NCBI RefSeq assembly: GCF_001510895.1 | Contig: NZ_LPWA01000120.1 | Location: 112,001-176,000 of the forward strand | DNA from: Mesorhizobium loti | Lineage (GTDB): Bacteria > Pseudomonadota > Alphaproteobacteria > Rhizobiales > Rhizobiaceae | DNA length: 64,000 nt | Direction of reading: 5' to 3' | In this document: positions 15,695 to 31,873 of the stretch, piece by piece | Position numbering within the stretch: position 1 is the stretch's first letter | How the letters are laid out: each line of letters starts with the position of its first letter | Position numbers and translations under genes: made by a program | The notes under the pieces: generated by a model | The model's input: only the letters and a program-made list of their open reading frames with translations | Told to the model about the DNA's origin: nothing | The model's database searches: none

Positions 15695-16047
15695 ATGCCG
15701 AAGCTTGGAACCGTCACCCCGATCCTACGCATGTTCGACATCGCCAAGGCGCGGGAATTCTATCTCGACTTCCTCGGTTTCGAGCTCCGCTTCGACGACA
15801 ACGCGCCGCTCTACATGGGCATCGCCCGCGACGGCTGCGAGCTGCATTTGAGCGAGCACCACGCGACGGCTCACCCGGCGCCAATGTCCGCATTGAGGTG
15901 GTCGGTATCGTCGACCTGCACCGCGAGTTCAAGGCCAAGCACTACCGCTTCAACAGGCCGGGCCTGGAGACGACGCCGTGGGAGACGAGGGAAGTCACGG
16001 TCATCGATCCTTTCGGCAACCGCCTGACTTTCTACGAAAGCGCTTGA
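15695..16047 (+). CDS. Glyoxalase/bleomycin-resistance fold protein (frameshifted)
   Basis: Small vicinal-oxygen-chelate protein, ~118 residues when corrected. The first frame reads MPKLGTVTPILRMFDIAKAREFYLDFLGFELRFD to ELHLSEHH; one base is missing near 15862-15864, after which the second frame gives VRIEVVGIVDLHREF and ends VIDPFGNRLTFYES. Those halves are the two beta-alpha modules of the fold, and the final Glu is a usual metal ligand. It resembles the bleomycin-binding/glyoxalase superfamily protein found singly in many rhizobia. The substrate is unknown. A palindromic repeat follows immediately downstream. Confidence 0.8.
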
Positions 16048-16060
16048 GGCGCTGCAGCCT

Positions 16061-16160
16061 AAAGCAATTCCAGGAAAAGTGTGAAACGGTTTTCCGTTCG
16101 GAATTGCGTAAAACAAAGAGATAGAGCGGTTCGCCGTTTCCGTGAAACGGTGAAACGCTC
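16061..16160. repeat. Compound palindromic repeat, two modules
   Basis: Two adjacent imperfect palindromes between convergent genes. Module 1 (16061-16117) has arms GCAATTCC and GGAATTGC around a core AGGAAAAGTG...CGGTTTTCCG. Module 2 (~16124-16160) begins GAGCGGTTCG and ends GAAACGCTC around GTTTC/GAAAC arms. The same pair recurs in opposite order and orientation at 60877-60976, and module 1 alone occurs twice at 42585-42701. This is a dispersed intergenic family of the REP/RIME kind. Confidence 0.85.
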
Positions 16161-16184: not shown

Positions 16185-17104
16185 TCAAAGACTGGCCGTT
16201 GCTTGCGCCTGCCTGGTCAGCATGAAGGCCTCGCGGATCGCGTCCTCCATGCCGTCGATCGCTTCGCCGGCCGCCAGCGGATTGCGGTGCAGCACCACAT
16301 TGGAGGAATCGATGTCGCCGAAGCCGTCGGCGGCCGTCAGCTCGCGGCAGTCGGGCGGGATGTTGCTGCGCGAGATCGGCGCGATCGCCAGGCCCGACGT
16401 GACCGCGAGCGTCAGGCCGCCATTGGTGTCGCTGGTATAGGCGACGCGATAGTCGAGGCCGCGCTGCTGCAGCGACTTGATCGCGAAGTCGCGGCACCAG
16501 CCGTCGCGGCTGTAGAGCGCGATCGGCACCGGCCGCTCCTCATGCATGTGGTGCAGCGTCGATGTCACCCACACCGTCGGATCGTGCATCAGCACCTCGC
16601 CGCCGGAAAAGCCTTCCCATTCGAACACCACGCGAGGTCGAGCTCGCCAGCTGCCAGCGCCCTCACCTGCGAGGCCGAATGGGCGTAGCGCACCGTGACC
16701 TCCACGCGCGGATGGCGTTTGGCGAATTCGCCGAGCGCTCGCGACAGGATCGAGCGGCCGTATTCGGCAGGGATCCCGATGCGCACCAGCCCGCCGAGCG
16801 GCGGCGCCACCAGCGAGGCCGCCGTCTCGTCGAGCAGCGAAACGATCCGCCGGGCATTGGCGATGAGCTCGCCGCCGCGCCGCGTCAGCGCCACCCCGCG
16901 CGAGCCGCGTTCGAACAGGCTGTCGCCGACCATGTCCTCCAGCTTCTTCATCTGCATGGAAACGGCCGACTGCGTGCGACCGGCCTTTTCGGCAGCCTTG
17001 GTGAAATTGCCCGTCTCGGCCACCGCCACGAAGGTGCGCAGGAGGTCGCTGTCGAGGGTGGCTTCATGGAAGTCGCCATAAGAAATTTTGATTGCTGGTA
17101 TCAT
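16185..17104 (-). CDS. LysR-family transcriptional regulator (frameshifted)
   Basis: LysR-type regulator of ~307 residues once one missing base near 16630-16633 is restored. The N-terminal part (MIPAIKISYGDF start at 17102-17104) has the winged HTH: LLRTFVAVAETGNFTKAAEKAG and RTQSAVSMQMKKLED; the C-terminal part is the effector domain (VFEWEGFSGGEVL to AFMLTRQAQ). The break falls in the effector domain after GELDLA. It diverges from an EamA exporter gene 152 bases away, so it probably senses a small molecule and controls that exporter. The C-terminal half as assembled could not be translated, but both halves look well conserved. Confidence 0.85.
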
Positions 17105-17114
17105 TCCAATTCGT

Positions 17115-17143
17115 TTGCAACATGTCAAACGCCGCAGGATAGT
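17115..17143 (+). promoter_or_regulatory. Sigma-70-like promoter for the exporter leader
   Basis: TTGCAA (17115-17120), a 17-base spacer, then GATAGT (17138-17143): near-consensus spacing with moderate hexamers. It would start transcription near 17150, giving a ~95-base leader that ends in the intrinsic terminator before the EamA gene. The site lies 10 bases from the divergent LysR start, where a LysR regulator would be expected to bind. This is a reading by eye and is untested. Confidence 0.45.
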
Positions 17144-17149
17144 CACCTC

Positions 17150-17243
17150 ACCCATTGGATATGCGGCCGCGAGATTCGGCCGCGGACCAATTCGAAGAGT
17201 CCTCACTCGTGCCCGCTGCCCGAAACGGTAGCGGGCTCTTTTT
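17150..17243 (+). ncRNA. Structured leader RNA upstream of the EamA exporter
   Basis: The transcript predicted from 17115-17143 would contain, in order: an outer helix ATTGG (17154-17158) with CCAAT (17187-17191) enclosing a GCGGCCG/CGGCCGC stem-loop (17163-17183); a small GAGT/ACTC hairpin (17197-17208); then a 10-bp terminator hairpin with a T-tract. The EamA start codon lies 13 bases after the T-tract. This layout suits a transcription attenuator or riboswitch, or a free-standing small RNA between two divergent genes. It matches no riboswitch class I recognise. The pairing is seen in the sequence; function is inferred. Confidence 0.45.
17211..17243 (+). terminator. Intrinsic terminator in the EamA leader
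   Basis: GCCCGCTGCC pairs with GGTAGCGGGC (10 bp, one G-T pair) around a 6-base CGAAAC loop, followed by TCTTTTT (17237-17243). It has the full form of a Rho-independent terminator, yet it lies directly in front of the exporter gene and on its strand, so it must be bypassed or regulated for the gene to be expressed from the upstream promoter. Confidence 0.75.
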
Positions 17244-17256
17244 CGCTGGAACGACG

Positions 17257-18207
17257 ATGCAGAACCGGATGGTGCTTGGCATTCTGAGCCTATGCCTGGG
17301 CGTTCTCGTGTTTTCGTTGCAGGACCCGCTGGTGAAGGCGGTTTCGGGCAGCTATCCGGTGACGGAAGTGATAGCGATCCGCGCCATCGTCGCGCTGCCG
17401 ATCCTGATCGTCATCGTCCACGCCGATGTCGGCTTGAAAGCCCTGCTGTCGAAGCGGGCAGGCATGCTGACGCTGCGCGCCTTCATGCAATTCAGCTCTT
17501 ATACCGTCTACTATCTGGCGATCGCCGCTCTATCGCTGGCCGACGCGATAGCGCTTTATTTCATGGCGCCGCTCTTCATCATGGCGCTCGCCGGGCCCTA
17601 TCTCGGTGAGCGCGTCTCCTGGCGCACGCTGACGACGGTGCTGATCGGCCTAGTCGGGGTGATCGTGATGCTGCGGCCGGGCGCCGGAGTGTTCGACTGG
17701 GCGGCACTACTGTCGCTCGGCTCGGCATTTCTTTACGGCTCTTCGCAGCTGATGGCGCGCCGGATCGGCGATACCGAATCATCGACGGTCATGGCCTTTT
17801 ACCAGAACGGTGCCTACCTCACCGGCGCGTTGGCGGTCGCCACCCTATTCCATCTTGCCGGCATCACCCACGCGGGCCATCCGAGCCTCGACTTCCTAGT
17901 GCGGCCATGGGTGTGGCCGGCGCTGCCGGACTTTCTCAAGATGGCCGCCTGCGGCTTCGTCGCCTCCGCCGGCATGATTTTGCTGTCGCAGGCTTACAGG
18001 ATGGCGCCCGCCAACCGCGTCGCCACCTTCGAATATACCGGCATCCTCTGGTCGCCGCTGTGGGGCTTCCTGTTCTTCGCCGAAGTGCCGCGCATAACGA
18101 CGGTGCTTGGCGCGGCACTGATCATCGGCGCTGGCCTAGTCGCGCTCAACGGCGAGCGGCGTCGAAGCGCCATTCCGGCGCTCGCGGCAACCGGCGATGC
18201 GGTGTGA
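17257..18207 (+). CDS. EamA-family (DMT) transporter
   Basis: A 316-residue inner-membrane transporter with about ten helices arranged as two EamA repeats (each five helices; boundary near residue 150), typical of drug/metabolite exporters. The start is MQNRMVLGIL at 17257; the longer in-frame reading from 17155 would translate through the leader terminator hairpin, so it is rejected. The substrate is unknown. The divergent LysR gene and the structured leader with terminator suggest ligand-controlled expression. The C-terminus is short, charged and cytoplasmic. Confidence 0.88.
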   Translation: MQNRMVLGILSLCLGVLVFSLQDPLVKAVSGSYPVTEVIAIRAIVALPILIVIVHADVGLKALLSKRAGMLTLRAFMQFSSYTVYYLAIAALSLADAIALYFMAPLFIMALAGPYLGERVSWRTLTTVLIGLVGVIVMLRPGAGVFDWAALLSLGSAFLYGSSQLMARRIGDTESSTVMAFYQNGAYLTGALAVATLFHLAGITHAGHPSLDFLVRPWVWPALPDFLKMAACGFVASAGMILLSQAYRMAPANRVATFEYTGILWSPLWGFLFFAEVPRITTVLGAALIIGAGLVALNGERRRSAIPALAATGDAV

Positions 18208-31584: not shown

Positions 31585-31773
31585 GTCACAAATCCGTCGA
31601 GAAGGCCTCCGTCCAGAGGCTGCGGCGGAAATACAGGCCGTGGCCCGGAATGTCGAGTGCCGGCGCGTGCGCCAGCCAGCAGGCCCCAAAGATGCCAACC
31701 CCAAGATGCTGGCCCCAAGATGCTAACCGTTGACGAAGCGCGGCGCTGGTCCTAGAAGAGCAGCCGGACTTCC

Positions 31774-31826
31774 CGTGGTGATTTGGCCGGTCGGCTTGCA
31801 GCCACGTTAAACAATTCGCTAAAGGG
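31774..31826 (+). promoter_or_regulatory. SAM-II riboswitch
   Basis: The S-adenosylmethionine riboswitch class II (metA motif), known upstream of methionine genes in alphaproteobacteria. The P1 stem is CGTGGT (31774-31779) with GCCACG (31801-31806); the loop has GATTTGG and GGCTTGCA, and the 3' pseudoknot strand GCTAAAGGG (31818-31826) pairs back into the loop, all as in the conserved class. It lies ~100 bases before metX and is followed by an intrinsic terminator, so binding of SAM should stop transcription. Confidence 0.9.
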
Positions 31827-31841
31827 CCGTTTGCAACCTGT

Positions 31842-31873
31842 AACCGGCTTTGCGAAGGCAAGCCGGTTTTTTA
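31842..31873 (+). terminator. Intrinsic terminator after the SAM-II riboswitch
   Basis: AACCGGCTT (31842-31850) pairs with AAGCCGGTT (31860-31868), a perfect 9-bp stem with a 9-base loop, followed by TTTTTT. It is 16 bases downstream of the riboswitch and 50 bases upstream of metX, the position expected for a SAM-controlled attenuator. The pairing is seen directly; the on/off sense (SAM favours termination) follows from what is known of met genes. Confidence 0.8.

Follow-up and report, generated by a model that had tools for sequence, protein, structure and literature searches.

Expression of the small RNA (sRNA) AbcR1 needs LsrB, and AbcR acts through anti-Shine-Dalgarno motifs, as stated in passages of PMC8844928. 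In Brucella, VtlR controls AbcR2 and activates three DUF1127 proteins (passages of PMC12595884), whereas in Rhodobacter sphaeroides the sRNAs CcsR1-4 derive from the 3' UTR of ccaF1, a DUF1127 gene (passages of PMC8625941). Here we analyzed a stretch of 64,000 nt of the Mesorhizobium loti genome (the window), in which a structured element with an intrinsic terminator lies between a divergent LysR gene and an exporter gene. We propose, with a probability of about three in four and by comparison of related genomes, that positions 17150-17243 encode a trans-acting sRNA as a unit of its own, which is divergent from a LrhA-like LysR gene, would share an operator with it and may have replaced a DUF1127-like mRNA. 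The data suggest that the association of LysR, DUF1127 and sRNA known from Brucella VtlR occurs again with a different LysR.

Results

Layout of the locus

The features of the locus are collected in Table 1, where the 5' end of the predicted sRNA was placed from the -10 box and its 3' end from the terminator. A preliminary description of this interval had named a sigma-70-like promoter, TTGCAA-N17-GATAGT, which is found there with 8 of 12 consensus bases and a GATAG that is well conserved in the genus; a promoter scan did not list this plus-strand site and listed instead the divergent lysR promoter, whose -35 box faces that of the sRNA promoter. The 10-bp terminator of the same description was recovered by scan; the last base of its T-run is 17243, and 13 nt separate it from the exporter ATG. 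The segment 17139-17256 folds more stably than 200 out of 200 shuffled versions (z = -3.22).

The divergent LysR gene that had been described is present, with Pfam support, but its frame is disrupted in this assembly: it was matched in two overlapping frames with two frameshifts in 16185-17079, and one base is missing near the start compared to relatives. Its best NCBIfam model was LrhA, with a match far below the cut-off. A glyoxalase-like gene at 15695-16047 carries one probable frameshift, and in relatives the frames of this gene and of lysR are intact; the frameshifts in both genes thus reflect either assembly errors or decay. The window also contains a palindromic intergenic repeat around GCAATTCCAGGAAAAG at 16064, 42588, 42648 and 60957 (the last on the opposite strand), and a SAM_alpha riboswitch at 31765-31842.

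Table 1. Features of the lysR-sRNA-exporter locus, in window positions.
Feature	Position	Strand	Basis
LysR-type regulator, LrhA-like, divergent	16185..17079	-	Pfam HTH_1 and LysR_substrate
lysR start codon (ATG)	17079-17077, or alternatively 17067-17065	-	
lysR promoter-like site TTGACA-N17-AATGAT	17100..17128	-	promoter scan; site conserved in alignments
Operator-like block AATTCGTTTG-N4-ATGTCAAAC, common to lysR and sRNA promoters	17108..17130		near-invariant in genus
GTTTG-N8-CAAAC dyad within operator-like block	17113-17130		
Predicted sRNA promoter TTGCAA-N17-GATAGT	17115..17143	+	sequence; GATAG conserved in genus
-35 TTGCAA; 17-nt spacer; -10 GATAGT	17115-17120; 17138-17143	+	read directly
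Candidate small RNA gene, ~94 nt	17150..17243	+	alignment ends, alignment, covariation
Stem-loop 1	17154..17191	+	outer ATTGG/CCAAT, inner covarying GCGGCCG/CGGCCGC
Outer helix, ATTGG with CCAAT	17154-17158 with 17187-17191	+	
Inner stem, GCGGCCG with CGGCCGC	17163-17169 with 17177-17183	+	
GAGT; ACTC	17197-17200; 17205-17208	+	
AGUCCUCACUC, proposed anti-Shine-Dalgarno seed, largely unpaired	17198..17208	+	
Intrinsic terminator	17211..17243	+	10-bp stem 17211-17236, T-run to 17243; scan
EamA/DMT-family exporter, ATG at 17257	17257..18207	+	Pfam EamA 8e-21

Conservation and boundaries within the genus

Alignment of the interval from relatives, proposed in the preliminary description together with a covariation analysis and a scan with all Rfam models, was carried out with positions 17061-17300 as query in a DNA search against 146 genomes of the genus, and the element was matched in 131 of them. 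The best alignment ended at query positions 183-199 in 93 of these 131 genomes, in 77 of them exactly at position 183, corresponding to the final T of the terminator at 17243. In the other 38 it continued to the query end on the exporter side. Loci were fetched from 129 of the matching genomes (G007 and G016 were left out) and, with the second copy of the genome under study, made a set of 130. LysR was divergent from the element in all 130, and EamA lay downstream on the same strand in 128, at a distance from the terminator that ranged from 12 to 213 nt (median 48) and was exactly 13 nt in 25 loci. In L032 and L033 a response regulator gene in convergent orientation comes next in place of the exporter, the element being retained with matched changes in its terminator. 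An sRNA ending at the exporter had been one of the options in the preliminary description, and the stop of the alignments at the terminator, the variable gap and the persistence of the element without the exporter all agree with it.

Several of the long gaps between terminator and EamA in relatives hold the palindromic repeat around GCAATTCCAGGAAAAG that also occurs elsewhere in the window. The second LysR-sRNA-EamA set of the genome under study (L031, G000:C141:9000-13500) lies on a 35-kb contig and has an exporter that is 83% identical; its LysR groups with a LysR of G368, a genome from a different genus (g86), pointing to transfer. When the 15 genus genomes lacking a DNA match were searched with a covariance model of the element, weak matches were obtained in four, and as neither LysR nor the exporter was nearby, these were taken as chance.

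RNA structure and covariation

Elements were extracted by pattern from 128 of the 130 loci (L037 and L056 were missed); 120 were distinct, and 70 of these, hand-picked for diversity, made up alignment A1. The motifs CCCATTGGA, GGACC and GTCCTCACTC are constant across the 70 aligned elements, GTCCTCACTC being preceded by a nearly invariant A, and outside this set L056 (CCCACTGG) and L129 (GGACAAT) each break CCCATTGGA or GGACC. Double-sided changes were found in 8 of 24 pairs (41 cells), with 98.8% paired; on each of five measures all 500 shuffled controls stayed below the observed value, and sliding the structure along the alignment lowered pairing to 22-45%. Such a conserved secondary structure with compensatory changes is expected of a trans-acting sRNA.

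The ATTGG/CCAAT helix around a GCGGCCG stem, already pointed out in the preliminary description, is in place, and six of the seven pairs of the inner stem GCGGCCG/CGGCCGC have double changes, as do two of the ten terminator pairs (99.6% of cells paired). The outer pairs TTGG/CCAA are nearly invariant in A1; because these and AGT/ACT are near-constant, covariation argues neither for nor against both helices. An alternative helix, GGAC/GUCC, is invariant in the 70 aligned elements and appears extended in genus g52. It is possible but ranks second by energy in Mesorhizobium, ATTGG/CCAAT being the more stable helix in 118 of 128 genus elements; covariation does not favor either.

As regards the GAGT/ACTC hairpin described earlier, the sequence is there, but it does not form a conserved helix. 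The GAGT position reads GAGT in 105 of the 128 genus elements, AAGT in 19, CAGT in three and GTGT in one, and genus g52 lacks the hairpin. CCTC and ACTC, on the other hand, are kept in 128/128, and CCUCAC has a mean unpaired probability of 0.76 over the same elements.

Occurrence beyond the genus

A pattern for the 3' module, consisting of GTCCTCACT, a CCCGC stem and a T-run, was scanned against 84,980 species, each represented by one genome, and gave 111 stretches. The module lies between divergent LysR and EamA in 98 of them; five adjoin EamA, with the stretch ending before LysR, five adjoin only LysR, one of these being truncated where the stretch ends, and three adjoin neither. In L180 and L268 the element is kept without EamA. 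Names were listed for 80 stretches: Mesorhizobium accounts for most of them, and the others come from Aminobacter, Pseudaminobacter, unclassified Hyphomicrobiales and a single Promicromonospora, which has neither LysR nor EamA as neighbor. With the covariance model of the element, matches at E<=0.01, weak ones among them, were obtained in 40 of 394 family genomes; the same LysR was present in 19 and the exporter in 14 of the 24 other-genus loci that it provided, and the five loci without LysR were not counted as evidence.

The LysR ortholog as anchor

To avoid selecting for the RNA, the LysR ortholog was used as anchor, and was found in 72 of 247 genomes from 36 genera. After exclusion of G211 and G307 (both at 41% identity), G176 (truncated contig) and the broken copy of the window, 70 loci remained for the survey, drawn from 69 genomes of 33 genera. 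The strict operator pattern was found at 56 of the 70. A DUF1127-like small-protein ORF occupies the divergent slot at 45 loci, at 35 as ORF only and at 10 with CCUCAC and a terminator ending its 3' UTR, whereas 18 loci (Mesorhizobium, g52, g80, g86, g104 and g108) have the module without the ORF and seven have neither. These module counts come from the less strict of two detections, the stricter one having missed several modules; as a control, CCTYAC occurs within 22 nt upstream in 4 of 145 terminator-like sites of the window. The DUF1127-like ORFs were called with a custom profile for which 14 of them served as seed; Pfam DUF1127 matched 6/6 ORFs tested, only one above the cut-off, and NCBIfam gave no match for them. 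No DUF1127-like ORF was found upstream of the module in the four g1 loci of this set.

EamA is downstream in 14 of the 18 module-only loci and absent in L331, L340, L341 and L394, with a diacylglycerol-kinase-like gene (named from sequence alone) downstream in L341 (g80) and L394 (g86). In three of four g86 loci CCUCACUC stands only ~40 nt past the operator start, so the predicted transcript would be only ~50 nt, little beyond CCUCACUC and the terminator. On the midpoint-rooted LysR tree the loci with the module and without the ORF form one group among the DUF1127-like loci, though with a weak support of 18, and need one change; a single clade for all module-bearing loci was rejected (p-value: 1.35e-5).

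Conservation of the 5' domain of the element does not extend from one genus to another. Of 21 loci compared across genera, 7 have a promoter-like sequence with 8 or more of the 12 consensus bases where one would be expected, including TTGAAA-N17-GATAAT, and none of these 7 is a DUF1127-like locus; what the genera share is therefore the operator, not a recognizable promoter. The operator block precedes both types of unit, the sRNA and the DUF1127-like ORF.

L357 (g88) and L370 (g30) have LysR divergent from a gene resembling an EamA transporter of another subgroup, so named from its sequence, which in L357 comes after a DUF1127-like ORF; a LysR of this kind would appear to be repeatedly associated with EamA-like genes. 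Other RNA matches seen in the survey loci are an FMN riboswitch at L149 1314-1458 (minus strand), near the g31 locus, and chrB-b RNA matches just under the cut-off, past the lysR 3' end, at L149 2837-2883 and L159 170-217.

Search for described RNAs

The Rfam scan gave no match to the element in the whole window (gathering cut-offs), in the region (E<=5) or in ten related loci (E<=1). RF02424 in the region and RF02837 in the g52 copy overlap the element and were discarded, both being far below the cut-offs. No paper on this RNA appeared among the open-access full-text matches listed, so within Rfam and the open-access papers searched the earlier view of an undescribed regulatory RNA holds.

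In the parts available of an RNA-seq-backed survey of M. huakuii 7653R with 40 candidates (PMC5596092), Table 1 lists SAM_alpha at 4,780,322 and no candidate between 4,681,810 and that position. All 14 complete genus genomes tested have a SAM_alpha copy 13.8-19.0 kb downstream of the element and on its strand. Each of these 14 genomes has a second SAM_alpha copy elsewhere, and where 6S RNA stands in three genomes helps to tell to which copy the table refers. From the gap in the 7653R table before SAM_alpha, the element would be outside that table, its position there being given by synteny alone (PMC5596092, parts available); this absence speaks against the sRNA reading.

Discussion

A conserved, previously unmodelled sRNA gene candidate, for which being a leader is not the main function, is the most likely nature of the element. 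Its 3' end, its structure, its promoter within the genus and its persistence without the exporter are supported by the genome comparisons, which give it, as judged in this way, an own promoter, a discrete 3' end and independence from the flanking genes, as expected of a trans-acting sRNA. The operator-like block is probably the LysR site: LysR bound at AATTCGTTTG-N4-ATGTCAA would control both the lysR and the sRNA promoters, and transcription from a housekeeping promoter would yield an RNA of ~94 nt that stops at the terminator. The motif GUCCUCACUC directly before the terminator is probably an anti-Shine-Dalgarno seed, which while unpaired could pair with GUGAGG-type Shine-Dalgarno sequences of mRNAs and lower their translation, as AbcR and NfeR1 do. 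A search for GTGAGGA near ATG gave 102 places in the genome under study and 19 for the reversed pattern, and was set aside as uninformative, as such an excess is expected for any Shine-Dalgarno word. EamA would be a neighbor and no fixed partner, and transcripts would extend into it past the terminator at short distances; read-through into the exporter is possible in general and likely where the gap is 13 nt.

The order of features in the window, with promoter, structured leader, terminator and EamA 13 nt further on, is that of a cis-acting attenuator or riboswitch, as the preliminary description had remarked, in which a signal would decide whether RNA polymerase passes through the terminator into EamA. 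The same 13-nt gap occurs in 25 of 128 loci, a same-strand EamA follows in 128 of 130 genus loci, and a DUF1127 gene of S. meliloti is under uORF-dependent attenuation, albeit without an intrinsic terminator (passages of PMC12218461), so that attenuation has a precedent among genes like those that occupy this slot elsewhere. Against this, the element exists without EamA in L032, L033, L331, L340, L341, L394, L180 and L268, it matches no Rfam riboswitch, and no consistent antiterminator was apparent, the 5' arm of the terminator being more than 50% paired upstream in 32 of 128 truncated folds. Unlike an aptamer, the 5' domain is unconserved between genera and almost gone in three of four g86 loci. 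Attenuation as the main function of the element thus found no support, and we regard it as improbable. A translated leader was also rejected, as the longest ORF starting inside the element gives 85 different start/length outcomes over 128 elements. In 64 of 126 cases the exporter frame can be followed upstream across the element without a stop, which says little, because 57 of 128 elements are free of stops in all three frames.

Both activities could also be combined in an explanation that overlaps with ours, the terminated product being a 5'-UTR-derived sRNA that acts in trans and the read-through product the exporter mRNA. It would account for the 25 of 128 loci that are too tight for a separate exporter promoter and for the retention of the exporter downstream in most of the genus, but it fits poorly with spacers that reach 213 nt, several of them with palindromic intergenic repeats, and with the loci that have no exporter; we consider it possible, though rather doubtful. 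The operator block is conserved more widely than any other part, as would in turn be expected if the locus were just a divergent promoter/operator followed by a terminator insulating the exporter, with a functionless RNA in between. Compensatory changes in six of seven inner-stem pairs, the invariance of GTCCTCACTC in 70/70 elements at a place outside both the promoter and the terminator stem, and the presence of this module in 3' UTRs of DUF1127-like genes from other genera make this very improbable.

Concerning the origin of the proposed trans-acting sRNA, it may have replaced the DUF1127-like small-protein mRNA that occupies the slot in other genera. The 3' UTR of such an mRNA would already have carried CCUCAC and a terminator, and the frame would then have been lost while the operator and the 3' module were kept. 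A DUF1127-like ORF in the slot, with the 3' module in ten loci and the module alone in 18, makes descent of the sRNA from a DUF1127 mRNA possible, whereas the lack of a promoter match at DUF1127-like loci lowers its odds. Our proposal that the LysR operator was kept while its product went from a DUF1127-like protein, through a 3'-UTR CCUCAC-terminator module and loss of the frame, to a family of RNAs is accordingly tentative, at slightly less than even odds, and so is its extension that these RNAs have a rapidly changing 5' half, reduced in one genus to little beyond the module. If the main reading is true, Mesorhizobium, Aminobacter and Pseudaminobacter would have an sRNA family without an Rfam model, beside a dedicated LysR and often an exporter, and the series of mRNA, mRNA with 3' module, RNA alone and minimal RNA would allow experiments on how an sRNA can arise from a small-protein gene.

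Attenuators and riboswitches of the SAM_alpha type likewise have a structured RNA with a terminator ahead of a gene, but here the element is retained without the downstream gene, no aptamer matches and no leader peptide is conserved. The CcsR RNAs carry the motif CCUCCUCCC, whereas the motif here is CCUCAC, and the two are set apart by description. With CcsR1-4, the 3' UTR of a DUF1127 gene contains an sRNA module (passages of PMC8625941), as proposed here for loci of g31, g8, g105, g65, g69 and g32, whereas the Mesorhizobium RNA is preceded by a predicted promoter of its own and lacks an ORF; a LysR partner is absent from the passages on CcsR in that source. AbcR1 and AbcR2 of the Rhizobiales (ar15, RF02345) resemble the present case in that a LysR-type regulator adjoins an sRNA, of ~115 nt, that has CU-rich anti-Shine-Dalgarno motifs and an intrinsic terminator (passages of PMC8844928 and PMC3712013). 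There was no RF02345 match over 16900-17400 at E<=5, the ar15 copies of the same genome are elsewhere, at C106 and C97, and the LysR of L033, which is of the present kind, had no tblastn match in 3.1-kb loci around the ar15 copies. The operator is also unlike the VtlR motif quoted in the passages of PMC12595884. Finally, NfeR1 (ar14) of Sinorhizobium meliloti is, like the element, a short RNA with anti-Shine-Dalgarno motifs, and no Rfam model matches the element; NfeR1 has three hairpins with the motif in every loop (passages of PMC7143759), whereas here a single motif lies in the linker before the terminator.
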